64,000 nucleotides of DNA from Fimbriimonas ginsengisoli Gsoil 348 (lineage in GTDB: Bacteria > Armatimonadota > Fimbriimonadia > Fimbriimonadales > Fimbriimonadaceae): NCBI GenBank assembly GCA_945881865.1, contig CAMCVK010000001.1, positions 1-64,000 on the forward strand, in the 5' to 3' direction. A program made the translations under genes and the position numbers. Below, in pieces: positions 1 to 27,803 of the stretch. The notes below the pieces were generated by a model. It had not been told where the DNA came from. It worked only from the letters and a program-made list of their open reading frames with translations, and searched no databases. How positions within the stretch are numbered: position 1 is the first letter of the stretch; each line of letters opens with the position of its first letter.

Positions 1-274
1 AAACCGTATCGATGGACCCGCGCATGCGCGAAAAGGCGTCGTTCACGAAGGCAACTCGCCGCGTATCGGTTCCGCGAACGGTTCCCGTGGCGGCCAAGAC
101 GCCCAGTCGCTTCACCGTCAGCGCGGTCTGAATCATGCCGTCGGCGGCCATTTCTCGCCGAAGGTCAGCCGGAAACAGCCGGGGAGAAACCGCAAACGGA
201 GACGAAACGGCCCACGACGGAGCCTGCGGGGCGGTGTCCTTCACTGCAATTTTCTTCTTTAACCAGTTCAACAT
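1..274 (-). CDS. Probable phage portal protein (3' part off window)
   Basis: The ORF track misses this frame because it runs off the left edge. It starts with ATG at 274, five bases after the terminase stop codon, and is open for 91 codons. The visible N-terminus begins MLNWLKKKIAVKD and contains MAADGMIQTALTVKRLGV, which resembles the early segment of portal proteins, where a short D-x-x-I-x-x-A helix precedes the clip and stem domains. A portal would form the dodecameric DNA gate of the capsid and dock the terminase. The call rests mainly on position directly downstream of a terminase large subunit, the usual phage order, and only weakly on sequence. A different head protein cannot be excluded from 91 residues. 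Confidence 0.6.
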   Translation of the reverse strand, partial: MLNWLKKKIAVKDTAPQAPSWAVSSPFAVSPRLFPADLRREMAADGMIQTALTVKRLGVLAATGTVRGTDTRRVAFVNDAFSRMRGSIDTV

Positions 275-279
275 TTTGT

Positions 280-1521
280 TTAGCCAAGGCGGATGCCGAG
301 CCTGGACTCGGCGGGAAGGTTGTGGGCCGCGAGGGCCAGGGCCATGACGAGGTCGTCGTGGGCGGTTCCGCGCGCTTCGTATCGGATCGCGCCCGAGTCG
401 GTGCGCCGCGCCGAAAAAGCGTTCAGCTCGCTTTCCAAAGTCGGGTTCGGCCGGAAACGGATCGCGGCGCGTTCGAAAAGCTCCGCCAAACCCTCGACGA
501 GGGTCCAGCGCGACCGCGCGTTGAAGTCGAATCCCTGCACGGGGACGTTGGGAAGGCGCTCGCGCAACCGGTCTGTTACCGGGTTGCCGAGGCCGGTTGA
601 GTCGCAAAGCACGCGTGCGCCGGGGTAGCGCAACACGATGGCCGCCGCCCGCAAAACGAGGTCTTGCCAGGTTCCGCGCGGAACGCGGGTGCACTCGACC
701 AGGTAGGCGAGGTCGCGGCTCCCCTGCAAGACGGCCACGGCAGTGTGGTCTTGGGTTTGCGCCCAATCGATGCCGATCGACGTCTCGCCGCGCACCTCAT
801 CGGGCAGTTGCGCGACCTTCGCGCGGTCGATGTTTTCTTGGCTGATGAGCACGTTCGCCGCGTCGGCGAACGACGCCTCGTACTCAGTGGCGAAGCTACG
901 CGCCGAGATTTGGGCTTTCTGGGCTTCCAAAAACTCCGGCGACACCCGCGGGTTTTCGCGACTTGGCGCGCGTCGGCTCCAGAATCCGCCTTCGCCGCGT
1001 TGCCCCATCTCGAAGAATCGCCAGAAATGGTTGAGGCCGTTGGGCGTGCTGATGAGCGTGAGTCTTCCGGCTGTCGTCGCCAGCATCGGCCAGAGGCTCT
1101 CGGTGATTAGCTCTTCGGGAACGAACGCGGCCTCGTCGACGATGACGTGGTCCGCCTCGTCTCCCCGCAGGCTGTCCGGGTGATGGCCCGACCGCGCGAC
1201 CACCGAGTGCCCCTCGAACTCGACGGACGGGAAAGGCGTTCGCCGGACTTCGTTTTTGCCCAACATGCATCCGATCTTGGCGAGCAGATCGGTGACCCGG
1301 CGGAAAAGAATCTGGGCTTGGGCGAGGGTGGGGGCGACGAGAAGCTGCCTCGAAGGCGGTCCGCGCTGAAGCCGGGCGACAACGTCGGCGGCGCAGGCTT
1401 CGGTTTTGCCCCACCTCCGTCCGCAGGCGAGCACGCGGTTCGTCGCCTCGGCCAGCAGGAATTGCCGCTGGCCGGGGTGCGGCCGCCACACGGCGGCAAT
1501 TTGGTTGAGGAACGACTCCAT
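280..1521 (-). CDS. Phage terminase large subunit (packaging ATPase/nuclease)
   Basis: This is the motor that pumps DNA into the prohead and cuts the concatemer. The N-terminal ATPase domain carries a Walker A-like GRRWGKTE near residues 35-42, a Walker B HVIVDEAAF near 125-133 and a coupling motif LISTPNG near 160. The C-terminal RNase H-fold nuclease shows acidic motifs in GIDWAQTQDHTAVAV, VLCDSTGLGNP and the terminal HDDLVMALALA. At 413 residues it is full length and uninterrupted. I chose ATG 1521 over the GTG at 1533; a TTGACA lies about 30 bp upstream of it. It begins a minus-strand phage operon that continues off the window, yet the gene upstream is an ordinary secreted protein. No terminase small subunit is visible. 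Confidence 0.9.
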   Translation of the reverse strand: MESFLNQIAAVWRPHPGQRQFLLAEATNRVLACGRRWGKTEACAADVVARLQRGPPSRQLLVAPTLAQAQILFRRVTDLLAKIGCMLGKNEVRRTPFPSVEFEGHSVVARSGHHPDSLRGDEADHVIVDEAAFVPEELITESLWPMLATTAGRLTLISTPNGLNHFWRFFEMGQRGEGGFWSRRAPSRENPRVSPEFLEAQKAQISARSFATEYEASFADAANVLISQENIDRAKVAQLPDEVRGETSIGIDWAQTQDHTAVAVLQGSRDLAYLVECTRVPRGTWQDLVLRAAAIVLRYPGARVLCDSTGLGNPVTDRLRERLPNVPVQGFDFNARSRWTLVEGLAELFERAAIRFRPNPTLESELNAFSARRTDSGAIRYEARGTAHDDLVMALALAAHNLPAESRLGIRLG

Positions 1522-1598
1522 GGTTCCTAACACGCGGCGAGGCGTCGGTTGTCAACCTTGCGTTGCGTCCGTGACCCTGGGACGGTTTCTTAGTTGAG

Positions 1599-10949: not shown

Positions 10950-11555
10950 ATGTTCCGCAAGAAACCGGTTGAGCCAAGCACCCCGCCCGTGTGGATGCTC
11001 GTTGGTCTGGGCAATCCCGGGCCAGAGTACAAAGGCACGCGGCACAACGTCGGCTTCGAGTTCATCGACTTGCTCGCCGAGCAAGAAGGCATTAAACTCA
11101 GCACGGCAAAGCACCAAGCACGATATGGCATCGGCACCGTCGCCGACGTTTCGATCCTACTGGTAAAGCCCCTCACCTTCATGAACCTTAGCGGACGTTC
11201 GGTGGCTCCGCTTGCGCGGGAATATGGACTCGCGCCGGAGAAAATTTGCGTGGTGGCCGATGACCTCGACCTCGAAGTTGGGCGGGTTCGACTCAAGCCA
11301 AAGGGGTCGGCGGGCGGCCACAACGGCCACAAGAGCCTGATTGCTTCGCTGCAGTCCTCCGAATATCCGCGCCTCAAGATAGGCATCGGCAGCGTGGATC
11401 GATCGCAAACCGTGGATTACGTCCTGGGGCGATTCAACCCGGACGAGCGTTCCCGGATTGAGTCCGCGTTTGGACGATGCCGGTTGGCCGTCGAAGCGTT
11501 GGTGACGCGCGGGCTGGAAGCCGCCCTGAACGTGGCGAACGAACCCGGAACCTAG
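10950..11555 (+). CDS. pth: Peptidyl-tRNA hydrolase
   Basis: This enzyme cleaves peptidyl-tRNA released from stalled ribosomes. The conserved core is complete: GLGNPGPEYKGTRHNVGF with the catalytic His, VKPLTFMNLSGRSV with the substrate-contacting Asn, VVADDLDLEVGRVRLKPKG, and GGHNGHKSLI. The 201-residue length is standard, apart from about 16 extra N-terminal residues (FRKKPVEPSTPPV). It is the last gene of the envelope operon and its 3' end overlaps the convergent lamin-tail-like gene by 4 bp. Confidence 0.95.
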   Translation: MFRKKPVEPSTPPVWMLVGLGNPGPEYKGTRHNVGFEFIDLLAEQEGIKLSTAKHQARYGIGTVADVSILLVKPLTFMNLSGRSVAPLAREYGLAPEKICVVADDLDLEVGRVRLKPKGSAGGHNGHKSLIASLQSSEYPRLKIGIGSVDRSQTVDYVLGRFNPDERSRIESAFGRCRLAVEALVTRGLEAALNVANEPGT

Positions 11556-11923
11556 CGGAGCAACAAACCGACCGGACGTTCGGTGTAGCTGTGTTGCAGG
11601 TTCATCAAGTGAATCGGGTTCGAAGTGTGCTCCCAGACTGCTTCCGACCGGTTCATGTAGGTGTGGAAAACCAGGGAGCCATCTTTCGACCTTGCCCAGC
11701 GGGACTCCCCTTCGCCCGTGGCGAGGAGAACAAACATCCCGGCGGGAATCAAGGCGTCATCCGAAAAAATGAAGGCGCCGGCGGAGAACGATCCGGTCGC
11801 AACGGCAAGTTCACTCACCAGCACATGGCCGCGTAACTGAATGCGGAGTGAACCCTGGTTTTGAAGGATGACGAACTCCTCTGATGGGTGGTTGCTTCGT
11901 TGAATGCCTACGATCCGAATCAT
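11552..11923 (-). CDS. Small lamin-tail-domain-like protein
   Basis: A 123-residue protein with no signal peptide. The pattern EEFVILQNQGSLRIQLRGHVL and IPAGMFVLLATGEGE resembles the lamin tail (LTD) Ig-like fold: an E-x-V-x-I-x-N strand, an x-L-x-G-x-x-L strand, then the I-P-x-G strand. In bacteria LTDs are usually fused to nucleases or sit in secreted proteins; a stand-alone cytoplasmic copy is less common. Function is unknown. A candidate -10 (TATCTT) lies about 15 bp upstream of the start, and the gene stands alone between pth and the MarR gene. Confidence 0.6.
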   Translation of the reverse strand: MIRIVGIQRSNHPSEEFVILQNQGSLRIQLRGHVLVSELAVATGSFSAGAFIFSDDALIPAGMFVLLATGEGESRWARSKDGSLVFHTYMNRSEAVWEHTSNPIHLMNLQHSYTERPVGLLLR

Positions 11924-11956
11924 GTTTGTCCCCGGTTAAAGATATGACGGTCCGAA

Positions 11957-12406
11957 TCACTTAATTGTGGCTTCGTTTGTCATTTGGGCGAGGGTTTTGT
12001 TGCAGGCTTTCAGCACCTGTATCGCGGTTTGGAGGTCCTCCGTGCTGATGCCTTCTTTCATCAGAACTTCGGCGTTCGCCAGTTCAGTCAGCACTTTTCG
12101 CAGGGCCGCATGACCACGAAGCGTGAGCGTAAGGTGCTTCGACCGGCTGTCGTCTGGACTGACCGTTTGGTTAACGAACCCTCGCACGACGAGGACCTTG
12201 ACGGTTTCGGAAAGCGTGGGCGGACGGACCCCCATTCGCCGCGCGATGGCGGCTTGGCTGGCACCCTTTTCGCTCGCGCGAATCGCAGAAAGGACTTCAA
12301 ACGTGGACATCGTGAGTCCGGCGGACTCCAGCCGGGGCAGCAGTAGATGCGAGACGAGTTCATTCATCAAGCCGGCTTGCGCAGTTAACGACTCCGAGAC
12401 GTCCAT
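11957..12406 (-). CDS. MarR-family transcriptional regulator
   Basis: A 149-residue dimeric winged-helix repressor. The helix-turn-helix is GASQAAIARRMGVRPPTLSETVKVLVVRGF, and the wing carries the typical SPDDSRSKHLTLTLRG. Flanking N- and C-terminal helices would make the dimer interface. I moved the start from 12478 to ATG 12406, where the family homology begins and a -10 lies 6 nt upstream. A palindrome in the promoter suggests autoregulation. The ligand is unknown and no obvious efflux or enzyme target sits next to it. Confidence 0.88.
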   Translation of the reverse strand: MDVSESLTAQAGLMNELVSHLLLPRLESAGLTMSTFEVLSAIRASEKGASQAAIARRMGVRPPTLSETVKVLVVRGFVNQTVSPDDSRSKHLTLTLRGHAALRKVLTELANAEVLMKEGISTEDLQTAIQVLKACNKTLAQMTNEATIK

Positions 12407-19895: not shown

Positions 19896-19945
19896 CGTGA
19901 TGTTTTGTATGCAGCCTTCGTGTAAACCAAACCCAAAATGCGTGG

Positions 19946-19976
19946 TTGACATATGTAGAATAACGTCTACTATAAT
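19946..19976 (+). promoter_or_regulatory. Promoter of the phage head cassette, with operator-like dyad
   Basis: A perfect -35 (TTGACA, 19946-19951) and a perfect -10 (TATAAT, 19971-19976) are 19 bp apart; an overlapping TACTAT at 19968 would give 16 bp. The spacer holds GTAGAATAACGTCTAC (19955-19970), an inverted repeat with 5-bp arms, exactly where a repressor would block polymerase. The -10 ends 6 nt before the ATG, so the transcript should be leaderless. Confidence 0.7.
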
Positions 19977-19982
19977 TCGACC

Positions 19983-20771
19983 ATGCGGCCACAACTTCAA
20001 CTCCGGCCTGCCCCTAGCCCGTCGCCCATCTCGGAGGACTGGATCGAGCGGCGGGCAAAACTCTTCGAGTGCGGTGCCTACCCCGACAAGGGCGTCACCA
20101 TCGCTCCCGGCGACCTGCAACGGCTCGCCGCCGGCTTCTCTGCCCCCGTTCCGGTGCTCATCGAACACGCCGATTCGCCCCTCGAAATGGGCATGCTCAT
20201 CTCCGTCGAGCCGGTCGGCGAGGAGCTCTTTGGCAACCTGCGATTCTCGCCCGAGGCCAACGCGCTGATCGAGCGATCCGGCGCGAAGTCACTCTCCGTC
20301 GGAATCTCGGCCGACCTATCCACGATTCGCGAGGTCTCGTTGGTGCGGAATCCCCGGGTTCCCAGTGCCCAGATCTTCCACAACGGCGACAGCCTGGCAT
20401 TTTTTGCCGAGGTCAGCGCGGTTGACTACCGTCGCGAATACGAGCGCTTGCGGCGCGAGACTCTGGCCAGCGAAAACGAGAAAGCCCTCCAGGCTTTGCT
20501 CCGCGAGGCAAAGATTCTCCCCGCCGAGGTTCCGTTTGCCCGAGCTCTGCTGGAGGCCGAAGCGTCGGTGACCTTCAGCGGAAGCCGAACGACCACGCGA
20601 GAACTGACGCTGCGGATGTTCCAATCGCGAACCCCGCACGCTTGGTTCACCGAGACCGCGACCGCCGCGATGAGCAGCGAAGCCAACCCGTTGCTCCTGC
20701 CCGAGGAGACGGCGTTCTACCGCCAGTACTTCCCCGAAATCCCCATCGGCGAGATCGCCAAGAACCGATAA
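19983..20771 (+). CDS. Phage prohead protease / scaffold-like protein
   Basis: A 262-residue product. Residues about 35-135 match phage head-maturation proteases: PVPVLIEHADSP carries the probable catalytic His, AKSLSVGIS the probable catalytic Ser, and TIREVSLVRNPRVPSAQIF is the family-typical last strand. Residues about 140-260 are helical (VDYRREYERLRRETLASENEKALQALL) and probably act as the internal scaffold, as in Mu gpI/gpZ-type proteins. It is the first gene of the head cassette, directly behind the promoter, and is intact. Confidence 0.82.
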   Translation: MRPQLQLRPAPSPSPISEDWIERRAKLFECGAYPDKGVTIAPGDLQRLAAGFSAPVPVLIEHADSPLEMGMLISVEPVGEELFGNLRFSPEANALIERSGAKSLSVGISADLSTIREVSLVRNPRVPSAQIFHNGDSLAFFAEVSAVDYRREYERLRRETLASENEKALQALLREAKILPAEVPFARALLEAEASVTFSGSRTTTRELTLRMFQSRTPHAWFTETATAAMSSEANPLLLPEETAFYRQYFPEIPIGEIAKNR

Positions 20772-20776
20772 CCAAG

Positions 20777-21217
20777 ATGCCTGCCCTACAAAAACCCTAC
20801 GAAAACTTCGAGAAACCCGGCCTGGTGGTGAGCTACCAGATGGCCGCCGTCAAGATCTACAAAGGATCGCTGGTGGGCGTGAACGCCGCCGGATTCCTGG
20901 TGCAGATGGCCCACGGAACCGCCGGATTGCGCTTTGTTGGCGTGGCCAACGAGACCGCCGACAACTCGGCCGGTGCCGCCGGTGACCTCAGCCTGAACGT
21001 GAACAAAACCGGGACCTTCGTGTTCAAACCCGTCGCGGGCTACACCCCGGCCCAGGGCGACCTCGGCAAAGACATCTACGCCAACACCGATTGGGAGGTG
21101 CAAGTGAGCGCAACGGGACTCACCAACGCCTATAAAGTCGGCTCCGTGACTCGCCTCGAGACGACGAGTACCGGCTCGGCCGGTGTTCGCATCCGAATCG
21201 GCAACTACACGCTTTGA
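20777..21217 (+). CDS. Phage head decoration protein (DUF2190-like)
   Basis: Start revised to ATG 20777, 5 bp after the protease stop; the ORF-track extension to 20642 lies inside that gene. The 146-residue product is beta-rich. It begins PALQKPYENFEKPGLVVSYQ and includes VKIYKGSLVGVNAAGFLVQM and FVGVANETADNSAGAAGDLS, the pattern of DUF2190 capsid-stabilising proteins. Such proteins bind the outside of the assembled shell. The position between protease and major capsid protein supports the call. Confidence 0.78.
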   Translation: MPALQKPYENFEKPGLVVSYQMAAVKIYKGSLVGVNAAGFLVQMAHGTAGLRFVGVANETADNSAGAAGDLSLNVNKTGTFVFKPVAGYTPAQGDLGKDIYANTDWEVQVSATGLTNAYKVGSVTRLETTSTGSAGVRIRIGNYTL

Positions 21218-21229
21218 TCTTACGAAACC

Positions 21230-22168
21230 ATGCCAATTACCACCTCTGACATGCGCGAGCTGATGCTGCCCGGGCTCCGGGCCGAGTTCGCCCTCGCCTA
21301 TCGCAACGAAATCGACAACTCGACGTTCGAGTCGCTGGCCACGGTCATCCAAACCACGCAGCCATCGCAACGCTACGGCTGGCTGGGTGCCGCCCCGGCG
21401 ATGCGCGAATTCACCGACGAACGGCGTCCGACGGGCCTCGCCGCCTACTCGACTACGATCGAGGACAAGACATTCGAAGCCACGATCGCCGTCGAGCGGA
21501 AGGCGTTGGAAGACGACCAGCTCGACGTGATCCGCTTGCGAATCCGCGACCTTGCATCCCGCGTGGCCGCCCACCGGCACCAGCTTCTGGCCGAGGCCCT
21601 TGGCCAAGGATTCTCGGCGACCGGGTACGACGGCGTCCCGTTCTTCTCGAATAGCCACCCCACCGGACCGGCAACGGCCTCGAACGTAACGAGCGATGCG
21701 CTTGCGGAAGCCTCGCTGGCCGCCGGAATCACGACGATGATGAGCCTGGAGGACGACCAGGCAGTTCCGCTTGGCATTGTGCCGGACACCCTGGTCGTCG
21801 GGCCCAAGCTACAATGGCTGGCGCGCGAACTTGTCGAAAGTCCGGTCGTGGTCTACCGAGGAAACGACGTCGATACCGCACCGTCGACGCCGTACAAGAA
21901 CGTCATCCAAGGTCGGCTGCGGCTGATCGTGTCGCCGTACCTGCGGGGCACGAACGACGACCGTTGGTTCCTGCTCGACACCACCCGCGCGGTTCGCGGC
22001 CTCATCTTGCAGCAACGCAGCGACGTTCCGGTTGAGTTCAGCGCCCTTGATTCGCGTAGCGGCAGCGAAAGCGCGTTCATGCGGGACCTCTTCTACTACG
22101 GCGTCCGCGCCCGCTACAACGTGGGCTACGGCATGTGGCAGGCAGCGTTCGGCGGGGACGTGCTTTGA
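21230..22168 (+). CDS. Phage major capsid protein (Mu gpT-like)
   Basis: A 312-residue HK97-fold shell protein of the Mu-like major-head-subunit type. Recognisable parts are the N-terminal LRAEFALAYRNEIDNSTFESLATV, then WLGAAPAMREFTDERRP, TIEDKTFEATIAVERKALEDD, the P-domain LGIVPDTLVVGPKLQWLARELV, and the C-terminal DRWFLLDTTRAVRGLILQQR and FYYGVRARYNVGYGMWQ. It is full length and uninterrupted. G+C and codon use look like the host genes, suggesting long residence. Confidence 0.88.
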   Translation: MPITTSDMRELMLPGLRAEFALAYRNEIDNSTFESLATVIQTTQPSQRYGWLGAAPAMREFTDERRPTGLAAYSTTIEDKTFEATIAVERKALEDDQLDVIRLRIRDLASRVAAHRHQLLAEALGQGFSATGYDGVPFFSNSHPTGPATASNVTSDALAEASLAAGITTMMSLEDDQAVPLGIVPDTLVVGPKLQWLARELVESPVVVYRGNDVDTAPSTPYKNVIQGRLRLIVSPYLRGTNDDRWFLLDTTRAVRGLILQQRSDVPVEFSALDSRSGSESAFMRDLFYYGVRARYNVGYGMWQAAFGGDVL

Positions 22169-22226: not shown

Positions 22227-22643
22227 ATGGTTGGTACGCCGGTGATCGTATCCGTGAGCGGCGCACGGGTCAAGGAAAAGTGCGGCGTTTCCGGAACGAC
22301 CTACGACACCGTGATCAACAACCTGATCGGCGAGACCGTCCCGGCGGTCCGGTTGCTGGTTTCCGAAGAGACCCTAGCCTCGGAGGACGCCGATCTTGCC
22401 GCCCTGGTGAACCTGGCCGCTACCGAGTGGGTGGCAGGTGAATTCATTGCGCAACGCCTTCGCGAGCCAGGCGTCGCCGACGGGATCACGGTCGGAGAGC
22501 TCACGCTTCGGCCACCGGCGCGGAACCTTGTCGATCCGTCTGGGCTCAAAGCCCAGGCGATGGCTCGGCTCCTTCCGTACCTTCGCTTTCCGGCGGTCGC
22601 CGGAGCGGCGTTTGGCGTCTTGGCGGGAGGCGAGGACCGGTGA
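22227..22643 (+). CDS. Probable phage head-tail connector protein
   Basis: Start revised to ATG 22227, after the capsid gene; the ORF-track start lies inside it. The 138-residue product has helical stretches DADLAALVNLAATEWVAGEF and KAQAMARLLPYLRFPAVAG around ITVGELTLRPPARN. The architecture and position after the major capsid gene suggest an adaptor that sits between portal and tail or stopper, but I do not recognise a specific family. Its 3' end overlaps the next gene by 4 bp (GTGA). Confidence 0.5.
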   Translation: MVGTPVIVSVSGARVKEKCGVSGTTYDTVINNLIGETVPAVRLLVSEETLASEDADLAALVNLAATEWVAGEFIAQRLREPGVADGITVGELTLRPPARNLVDPSGLKAQAMARLLPYLRFPAVAGAAFGVLAGGEDR

Positions 22644-22939
22644 GCGTGCTTTCCGACCGCGCAACGACGGCCATTCTCGCGCACGCGGACGACTTAACTC
22701 TCGCCGGCGTAGGTCGAAAAGCGTTGGTTACGATGCTCGGCGGGGCCCGCGCCTACCTGTCGGATGCTGAGTACGAAGCCGCCGGCCGCCCCATTCTTGG
22801 CGCGGTCGTCCCCGCGAGCGACACCACGACCGCCGGCTCGTCCGCGAACTATCTCGGACGGGCGCTCACGGTGAAACGGGCCATCGACCTTCGATGGGAC
22901 GGCGCGACGGTCGCGCGCCTACTTGTTCTGGTCGGCTGA
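22640..22939 (+). CDS. Small phage-cassette protein, last gene of the head module
   Basis: A 99-residue product starting at GTG and overlapping the preceding gene by 4 bp. Visible are two helices (RATTAILAHADDLTLAG, VGRKALVTMLGGARAYLSD) and a beta-rich tail (ALTVKRAIDLRWDGATVARL). Family unknown; by position a head-completion or stopper protein. Its last 21 bp overlap the 3' end of the convergent rseP gene, so the phage cassette ends exactly against a housekeeping gene. Confidence 0.5.
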   Translation: MSVLSDRATTAILAHADDLTLAGVGRKALVTMLGGARAYLSDAEYEAAGRPILGAVVPASDTTTAGSSANYLGRALTVKRAIDLRWDGATVARLLVLVG

Positions 22940-26435: not shown

Positions 26436-27803
26436 ATGGCCTCCGCCGACTCGCCGACCCCCGTTTCCGACCCCCGATTTCGACTCTCGCCGACCGTGGC
26501 GCGGGAGCTTTCCGCCGAATATGGCACCCCGCTGTACGTCGTCGACGAAGCCCACTTTCGGGCGCGAATTCAGCGATATCGGGCCGCATTTCTGGCCGCC
26601 TACCCCCAGGCGGAGATCACCTTTGCCTCGAAAGCGAACTCAACCCTCGCCGTTATTGCCCTCGCTCACGCCGAAGGATGCGAGATTGACGTCGCCAGCG
26701 AAGGCGAACTGCGCGCCGCCATCGCGGCCGGCGTACCGGCCTCGAAGTGCCACCTCCACGGAAACAACAAGCAGCTCGGCGAGCTCGAGTTTGCCCTCTC
26801 GGTCGGTGTCGGAAAGATCATTCTCGACCACTTTGGCGAGATCGAGACCGTCGCGAAACTAGATCGACCGGCCGAGACCCGGTTTGTTATTCGGCTTGCG
26901 CCCGGCGTCGATCCGGTTACCCACGCAAAGATCTCGACCGGCCAGGCCGATACGAAGTTTGGATTCAACATTACGGATGGAAGCGCAGAAAAGGCGACCC
27001 AGCGTGCTCTTGAACTCGGCCTGAACCTCCTTGGCTTCCACTGCCACGTCGGCTCGCAGTTGCTGGACCCCGAGGCGCAACGCTCGGGCGGATTCCTCAT
27101 CGCCGAGTTCGCCGCCAAGATCGCCCGCGACCACGGCTTCATCGCCAGCTACCTGAACGTCGGCGGTGGCCTCGGCGTGAAATACACCGACAAAGATGAG
27201 CCGATGCCTGTCGAGGATTACTGCCGCCTCGTAGCCGAGTCCGTCAGCGAAGCCGTCAAAGGCTCCCCACTCGAAAACGTTCCTTTCAGCCTCGGGCAAG
27301 AACCAGGACGATCGCTCATCGCGGAAAGCGGGGTGACGCTCTACTCCGTCGGCGTCATCAAAACCGTTCCCGCAAAGGACCGCGGAACTCGCACCTACGT
27401 CTGCGTGGATGGCGGCCTCAGCGACAACCCGCGCCCCGTCATGTACGGCAGCAAATACACCGTCGAAGCCATCCGCGCCAACGATTGGACCTACACTACC
27501 GACGGCCCGGGGGCCGTGATGGTAGATCCTTCGGAGTCCACCGTGACCGTCAGCGGCAAGCACTGCGAAACCGACAAGCTGTTCGAAGATATTTCCCTGC
27601 CATCCGACCTAGCCATCGGCGACTTGGTTCAAGTGCTTTGTACCGGAGCGTATAACAGTGCGATGGCGAGCAATTACAACCGGTACCCACGCCCCGCCAC
27701 CGCCCTCCTTCGCACGGACGGCACGCACATTTTGGTTCAGCGGCGAGACACGTGGGACGAAATGTTTGCCCGGGAATCGGTTCCGAGCGGGCTGGTGAGC
27801 TAA
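26436..27803 (+). CDS. lysA: Diaminopimelate decarboxylase
   Basis: A PLP-dependent fold III decarboxylase that makes L-lysine from meso-DAP. The N-terminal barrel carries the PLP lysine in ITFASKANSTLAV, the stacking His in FHCHVGSQL, the phosphate-binding GGGLGVKY and QEPGRSLIAESG. The C-terminal domain contains CVDGGLSDNPRPVMYGSKY and LCTGAYNSAMASNYN. I use ATG 26436 instead of GTG 26430. The downstream M50 protease start overlaps its stop (TAATG), so the two are translationally coupled. Confidence 0.95.
   Translation: MASADSPTPVSDPRFRLSPTVARELSAEYGTPLYVVDEAHFRARIQRYRAAFLAAYPQAEITFASKANSTLAVIALAHAEGCEIDVASEGELRAAIAAGVPASKCHLHGNNKQLGELEFALSVGVGKIILDHFGEIETVAKLDRPAETRFVIRLAPGVDPVTHAKISTGQADTKFGFNITDGSAEKATQRALELGLNLLGFHCHVGSQLLDPEAQRSGGFLIAEFAAKIARDHGFIASYLNVGGGLGVKYTDKDEPMPVEDYCRLVAESVSEAVKGSPLENVPFSLGQEPGRSLIAESGVTLYSVGVIKTVPAKDRGTRTYVCVDGGLSDNPRPVMYGSKYTVEAIRANDWTYTTDGPGAVMVDPSESTVTVSGKHCETDKLFEDISLPSDLAIGDLVQVLCTGAYNSAMASNYNRYPRPATALLRTDGTHILVQRRDTWDEMFARESVPSGLVS

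Follow-up and report, generated by a model that had tools for sequence, protein, structure and literature searches.

The 64-kb stretch of DNA analysed here, which we call the window, carries phage-type head and packaging genes at two places 18 kb apart and on opposite strands (Table 1). One is a five-gene capsid cassette and the other a large terminase gene followed by the first part of a Mu-type portal gene that is cut by the end of the contig. The capsid promoter opens the cassette amid host genes, with a divergent RCC1-like ORF of 826-893 aa on one side and, on the other, genes that we take by eye to be rseP and dxr, and the cassette stands between host genes both in the window and in the seven relatives examined for gene order. 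No phage regulatory, integration or replication genes were recognised around the cassette, and no tail, delivery or lysis genes were recognised adjoining either the cassette or the terminase/portal locus. The protease of many relatives (L012, L014, L017, L018, L022, L024, L027, L029) is longer at its N-terminus, by about 40-60 aa that include a GPG(Y/F)RG-like motif; the copy in the window has no such extension. Relatives encode the Mu-type portal (PF06074) after the terminase; a portal of the PF04860 type was considered and set aside, as the genome has none. Single in-frame stops interrupt otherwise conserved terminase or portal genes in several genomes (G009, G015, G018, G043, G045, G050, G053, G055, G056, G057 and G059) and could stem from assembly errors, recoding or local decay. 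On contig C14 (L002) the same genome carries a Mu-type prophage that is separate from the cassette and unlike it, with its portal at 11031-12092 and a protease-like gene near 27077.

Table 1. Features of the two loci, in coordinates of the window.
Feature	Position	Strand	Basis or remark
Mu-type portal, N-terminal part	1..274	-	cut by contig end; remainder at start of contig C16, 2-742
Large terminase subunit	280..1533	-	Terminase_6N/6C, phrog_2; likely start ATG 1521
Terminase promoter	1519..1557	-	GGTTGACA at 1557-1550 to ATG at 1521-1519
Capsid promoter -35 element GGTTGACA	19944..19951	+	TTGACA at 19946-19951; also at terminase promoter; kept in capsid and terminase orthologues
Predicted LexA/SOS box GTAGAATAACGTCTAC	19955..19970	+	arms GTAGA 19955-19959 and TCTAC 19966-19970; within promoter spacer, touching -10; from sequence only
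Alternative -10 TACTAT	19968..19973	+	16-bp spacer
-10 hexamer TATAAT	19971..19976	+	19-bp spacer
Putative head maturation protease, cassette gene 1	19983..20771	+	ATG at 19983-19985; position and local match to protease-like gene of C14 prophage; no HMM match of its own
Head decoration-type virion protein	20777..21217	+	phrog_1731
Major capsid protein, Mu gpT type	21230..22168	+	PF10124
Conserved 138-aa cassette protein, probable head-completion protein	22227..22643	+	function inferred from position
Conserved 99-aa cassette protein	22640..22939	+	conservation

A base-by-base check gives the sequence from 19944 to 19985 as GGTTGACATATGTAGAATAACGTCTACTATAATTCGACCATG. The first-pass annotation had described a near-consensus promoter with an inverted repeat between its hexamers and six bases between the -10 and the ATG; the repeat and the distance stand as described, and the hexamers are perfect, but the 19-bp spacer departs from the ideal of 17 bp. 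A promoter scan that allowed spacers of 16-18 bp favours TTGACA-N16-TACTAT instead (19946-19973). Under either choice of -10 the predicted +1 falls at the ATG or no more than about 3 nt away, and the promoter may be leaderless, with a start of transcription that would coincide with the start codon. The dyad can be extended to GTAGAA-N4-GTCTAC, with 6-bp arms and one mismatch. GTAGA-N6-TCTAC is present as a single copy in the 64 kb, as is TTGACA-N15..21-TATAAT.

The terminase promoter of the window has neither TATAAT nor the dyad, and the dyad was found in none of 26 terminase promoters at a threshold of at least 8 of 10 matching positions. The TTGACA placed by the first-pass annotation about 30 bp before the terminase start is there, with a measured gap of 28 nt to the likely ATG, and its suggestion that terminase and capsid are co-regulated is borne out to the extent that the two promoters have the GGTTGAC element in common, not in the SOS box, which the terminase lacks. 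Across the relatives GGTTG(A/C/T)C stands 5' of 20 of 30 terminase starts and 32 of 49 capsid starts, compared with about 8 among 268 other genes. In family f2 the terminase and capsid promoters have both switched to GGTTGCC while lexA there keeps TTGACT, and the -35 elements of lexA are mostly CCTTGAC, with GG in only 2 of 35. Given this enrichment and the joint switch in f2, we posit that GGTTGAC probably couples the two loci through a common factor or promoter class; we are cautious about this, however, because an unrelated multicopy non-coding element in two genomes, G013 and G014, has this -35 too. The many GGTTGAC...CCTATAAG promoters before unrelated non-coding stretches in these genomes would fit an alternative in which GGTTGAC is an ordinary sigma-70 -35 element, terminase and capsid have no special co-regulation, and LexA is the sole specific input and acts on the capsid only. 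This alternative competes only with the second-input part of the explanation developed below, and the rarity of the element before other genes, the different -35 of lexA and the f2 switch lead us to consider it rather unlikely, albeit a serious contender.

The element in G013 and G014 is present at about ten or more dispersed places, as GGTTGACTTTCCGCCGC-N-CCTATAAG with a non-coding stretch of about 110 nt behind it that has AATTTACA..CGCCAAGGCGGGAGCATTAATAAATAAATTTT (L162, L163, L165, L166, L169, L172, L182, L183, L185, L189). Several copies have a tRNA gene no more than about 0.5 kb away, and an Rfam search of the element returned no name apart from the neighbouring tRNAs; it is possibly a small RNA or a mobile element with its own promoter. 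As a finder of co-regulated genes, the pattern GGTTGAC-N-TA-N-ATG was abandoned, since in the genome of the window it returned the two known loci and four sites that seem to be intragenic, and in G013 and G014 it returned the multicopy element instead. On contig C16, from 16187 onwards (L221:988-1451) and some 15 kb away from the fragment of the portal gene, a one-mismatch SOS box with GGTTGAC 5' of it precedes the gene of a 142-aa protein that by eye we take to have a sigma-region-4-like helix-turn-helix. We considered this protein as a candidate regulator of the module and rejected it, as it has no Pfam hit and no homologue at the loci retrieved.

The exact form of the dyad, GTAGAMN4KTCTAC, occurs three times in the 3.23-Mb genome, where base composition would lead one to expect about 0.4 sites by chance. 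Besides the capsid promoter, these sites mark only SOS genes: a Y-family DNA polymerase (IMS, PF00817), whose start codon the box overlaps, and uvrA on contig C13, where the box lies 4 bp 5' of the ATG. The recA gene of this genome has a site at only 8 of 10 positions. A near-perfect box, ATAGACATATGTCTAC, abuts the ATG of a RhuM-family gene (PF13310) at 97008-97023 of contig C3 (L224), and at 2275-2290 of the same contig (L223) a one-mismatch box lies 5' of a 337-aa ORF that resembles the C-terminal half of UvrA and is separate from the uvrA gene on C13. Counts of the dyad over whole genomes were dropped as sole proof: perfect 12-base dyads slightly exceed the reversed control across relatives (16 versus 11 sites), and one-mismatch dyads are rarer than the control in the genome of the window (21 versus 45). 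Given counts barely above or even below the control, the case for LexA rests on the identity of the genes behind the sites.

In the relatives, these genes include those of the SOS response. The dyad precedes recA at 8 or more of 10 positions in 25 of 29 relatives (mean of shuffled sequences 1.8) and at 9 or more in 14 of 29 (0.14), and in some relatives, such as G004 with TTAGTAGAATAACGACTACTATAAT, the recA site is nearly letter-identical to the sequence in the window. Y-family polymerases have it at 9 or more positions in 10 of 16 cases (shuffle mean 0.04). Perfect dyads are also found in relatives 5' of genes that, from a reading of their protein sequences by eye, are presumably ImuB-, AlkB- and SplB-like. 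In lexA promoters of the order we find TTGACAnGTAGAC, with GTAGAC in nearly all those inspected and the second arm, TCTAC, in most; here the half-sites flank the -10 as GTAGA-N20-TCTAC, with a gap of 20 bp in 24 of the 25 measured (L036-L065, L085, L206-L215), in contrast to the N6 dyad at recA, uvrA and the capsid cassette. A LexA gene is present in every genome searched, nearly always as one clear copy, and the LexA of this genome has the PF01726 DNA-binding and PF00717 (S24) domains, an Ala-Gly cleavage site and the Ser and Lys expected in a repressor that cleaves itself. Based on the sites at recA, Y-family polymerases and uvrA, the half-sites at lexA and the cleavable type of LexA encoded, we propose that GTAGA-N6-TCTAC is most likely the LexA/SOS box of Fimbriimonadales. 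The wider gap at lexA, which implies that autoregulation of LexA does not proceed through an identical site, could be taken to mean that the dyad belongs to another dimeric repressor of repair genes, such as a regulator of the response to alkylation or oxidative stress, or another repressor of the S24 type. We judge this improbable given that LexA is encoded in every genome and that the genes marked, recA, uvrA and Y-family polymerases by the dyad and lexA by its half-sites, make up the core LexA regulon; lexA, recA and the error-prone polymerases are named as the core LexA-regulated set across phyla (PMC8565304).

In orthologous cassettes the dyad, at 8 or more of 10 positions, is found in 15 of 43 distinct capsid promoters, compared with a mean of 0.64 and a maximum of 4 in 500 dinucleotide shuffles, a test in which identical promoters were merged and related ones are taken as independent. 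Where present, it is located between the -35 and the -10 and always begins 3-5 nt 3' of the -35 (GTTGAC), in fixed register. The first-pass annotation had staked its proposal on conservation of the dyad at such cassettes, and such conservation is seen, with the qualification that 28 of the 43 promoters lack the dyad at this threshold. The box is found mainly in the family of the window, and other families have the cassette without it. Given that about two-thirds of the orthologous promoters, mostly from other families, are without the box, SOS control of the capsid would be a lineage-restricted layer, gained or lost by lineage. A comparison of G013 with G014 illustrates how closely the promoter can be kept: the 52 nt starting at GGTTGAC are identical, the 120 nt 5' of them are only about 55% identical, and synonymous sites differ by 0.33-0.41. 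Conservation of the dyad within this set of promoters and its match to the predicted host LexA box speak for the repression proposed by the first-pass annotation, and its companion claim, that the cell rather than a resident phage repressor controls the capsid genes, likewise gains from a box common to the repair genes.

Of 61 genomes of the order, 40 carry the capsid gene, and these cover 25 of 33 genera; the gene is almost always single-copy, and its orthologues are mostly 53-68% identical. Capsid loci that carry organism names belong to Fimbriimonadales/Fimbriimonadaceae and other Armatimonadota, with the exception of a few doubtfully named records and one weak Caulobacter match. For the protease, decoration and capsid genes, comparisons of close relatives give dN/dS values of 0.03-0.18, two more distant pairs being near synonymous saturation, and capsid distances follow RecA distances across 16 genomes (Mantel r 0.86, p 0.0001). 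The low dN/dS and the congruence with RecA show that the cassette has been inherited vertically, is held by strong purifying selection and is not decaying. An active temperate prophage was rejected given an isolated five-gene cassette among host genes without a contiguous genome of integrase, repressor and tail genes. That the cassette is instead a decaying prophage, its LexA box a relic of prophage induction with no present function in the cell, is scarcely credible and we reject it: some true phages are LexA-controlled, stops interrupt some of the terminase and portal genes of other genomes, and a Mu-type prophage resides on contig C14, but the purifying selection, the congruence with RecA, the breadth across genera, the conserved promoter and the lack of recognised phage regulatory or integration genes around the cassette all weigh against it. 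Head and packaging genes that are inherited vertically and under purifying selection, at dispersed loci and with no recognised replication or integration genes, are as expected of a gene transfer agent, and on our best reading the two loci constitute a domesticated Mu-type head and packaging module, perhaps of this kind.

Considering these observations together, all of them read from the sequences of draft genomes, we think it very likely that the dyad in the capsid promoter is an operator of the host LexA, and that the cassette would be a LexA-repressed, damage-released part of a domesticated Mu-type module with two loci. A LexA dimer on the box would occupy the spacer together with the upstream edge of the -10, and RNA polymerase would thereby be kept off. 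Cleavage of LexA upon DNA damage and the co-release of SOS genes are established SOS biology. After damage, with RecA stimulating LexA to cleave itself, a strong leaderless promoter would become available, and the protease-decoration-capsid cassette would be made alongside recA, uvrA and the polymerase. The module comprises two chromosomal loci, the capsid cassette and the terminase with the portal, with Mu-type head and packaging genes that descent and selection have kept in Fimbriimonadales, and GGTTGAC would serve as the second input, at both. What the scheme takes from observation is the sequence and its conservation, the match to the boxes of repair genes, the cleavable type of LexA, vertical inheritance and purifying selection, to which we add by inference LexA binding, repression, induction, the start of transcription and the role of the particles.

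The predicted box resembles the SOS boxes of other phyla in being a short repeat at recA, Y-family polymerase and uvrA promoters alongside an S24-type LexA. LexA motifs are highly variable, 17 having been reported to 2021, and GTAGAM-N4-KTCTAC is none of the three quoted for other phyla, TTAC-N3-GTAA, GGTT-N10-AACC and GTTC-N7-GTTC (PMC8565304). The literature that we searched gave no LexA motif for Armatimonadota, a phylum for which the dyad provides a likely LexA operator. The module shares with phage Mu the gpT-type capsid (PF10124) and the Mu-type portal (PF06074), but is split over two distant loci without recognised transposition genes alongside, and its capsid protein is about 32-36% identical to the best phage records. 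Host LexA boxes at phage-derived promoters are familiar from the LexA-repressed prophages coliphage 186, CTX phage and GIL01; these are mobile, whereas the Fimbriimonadales module is fixed, conserved across genera and without recognised integration or replication genes alongside. An earlier survey described Fimbriimonadales prophages as incomplete, one of them with portal, head and capsid genes (PMC8597652). The closest parallel is with the gene transfer agent of Rhodobacter capsulatus and its relatives in Dinoroseobacter and Caulobacter, which are likewise domesticated head and packaging genes, passed on vertically, spread over more than one chromosomal locus and controlled by host regulators, with a link to LexA. 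The Fimbriimonadales module differs in its Mu-type head (gpT capsid, Mu portal) and its armatimonadotal host, and no tail genes were recognised beside its loci. We put forward, giving equal weight to its being right or wrong, the hypothesis that Fimbriimonadales possess a gene transfer agent-like system not recognised before, with a Mu-type head and two dispersed loci, whose capsid half would be directly repressed by LexA through a motif new to the phylum, with a dedicated GGTTG(A/C)C element at both halves and capsid production within the SOS response. If the LexA reading is true, a domesticated virus-head module is tied directly to the DNA-damage response of its host. The links to LexA in gene transfer agents described so far run through intermediates or rest only on predicted sites: indirectly via CckA in R. 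capsulatus (PMC6363796), with putative LexA sites at the cluster in D. shibae (PMC6473078), and with repression by the LexA-like RogA in Caulobacter (PMC9632790). Here, by contrast, the predicted box lies inside the capsid promoter itself, which makes testable the question of which stress triggers particle production.
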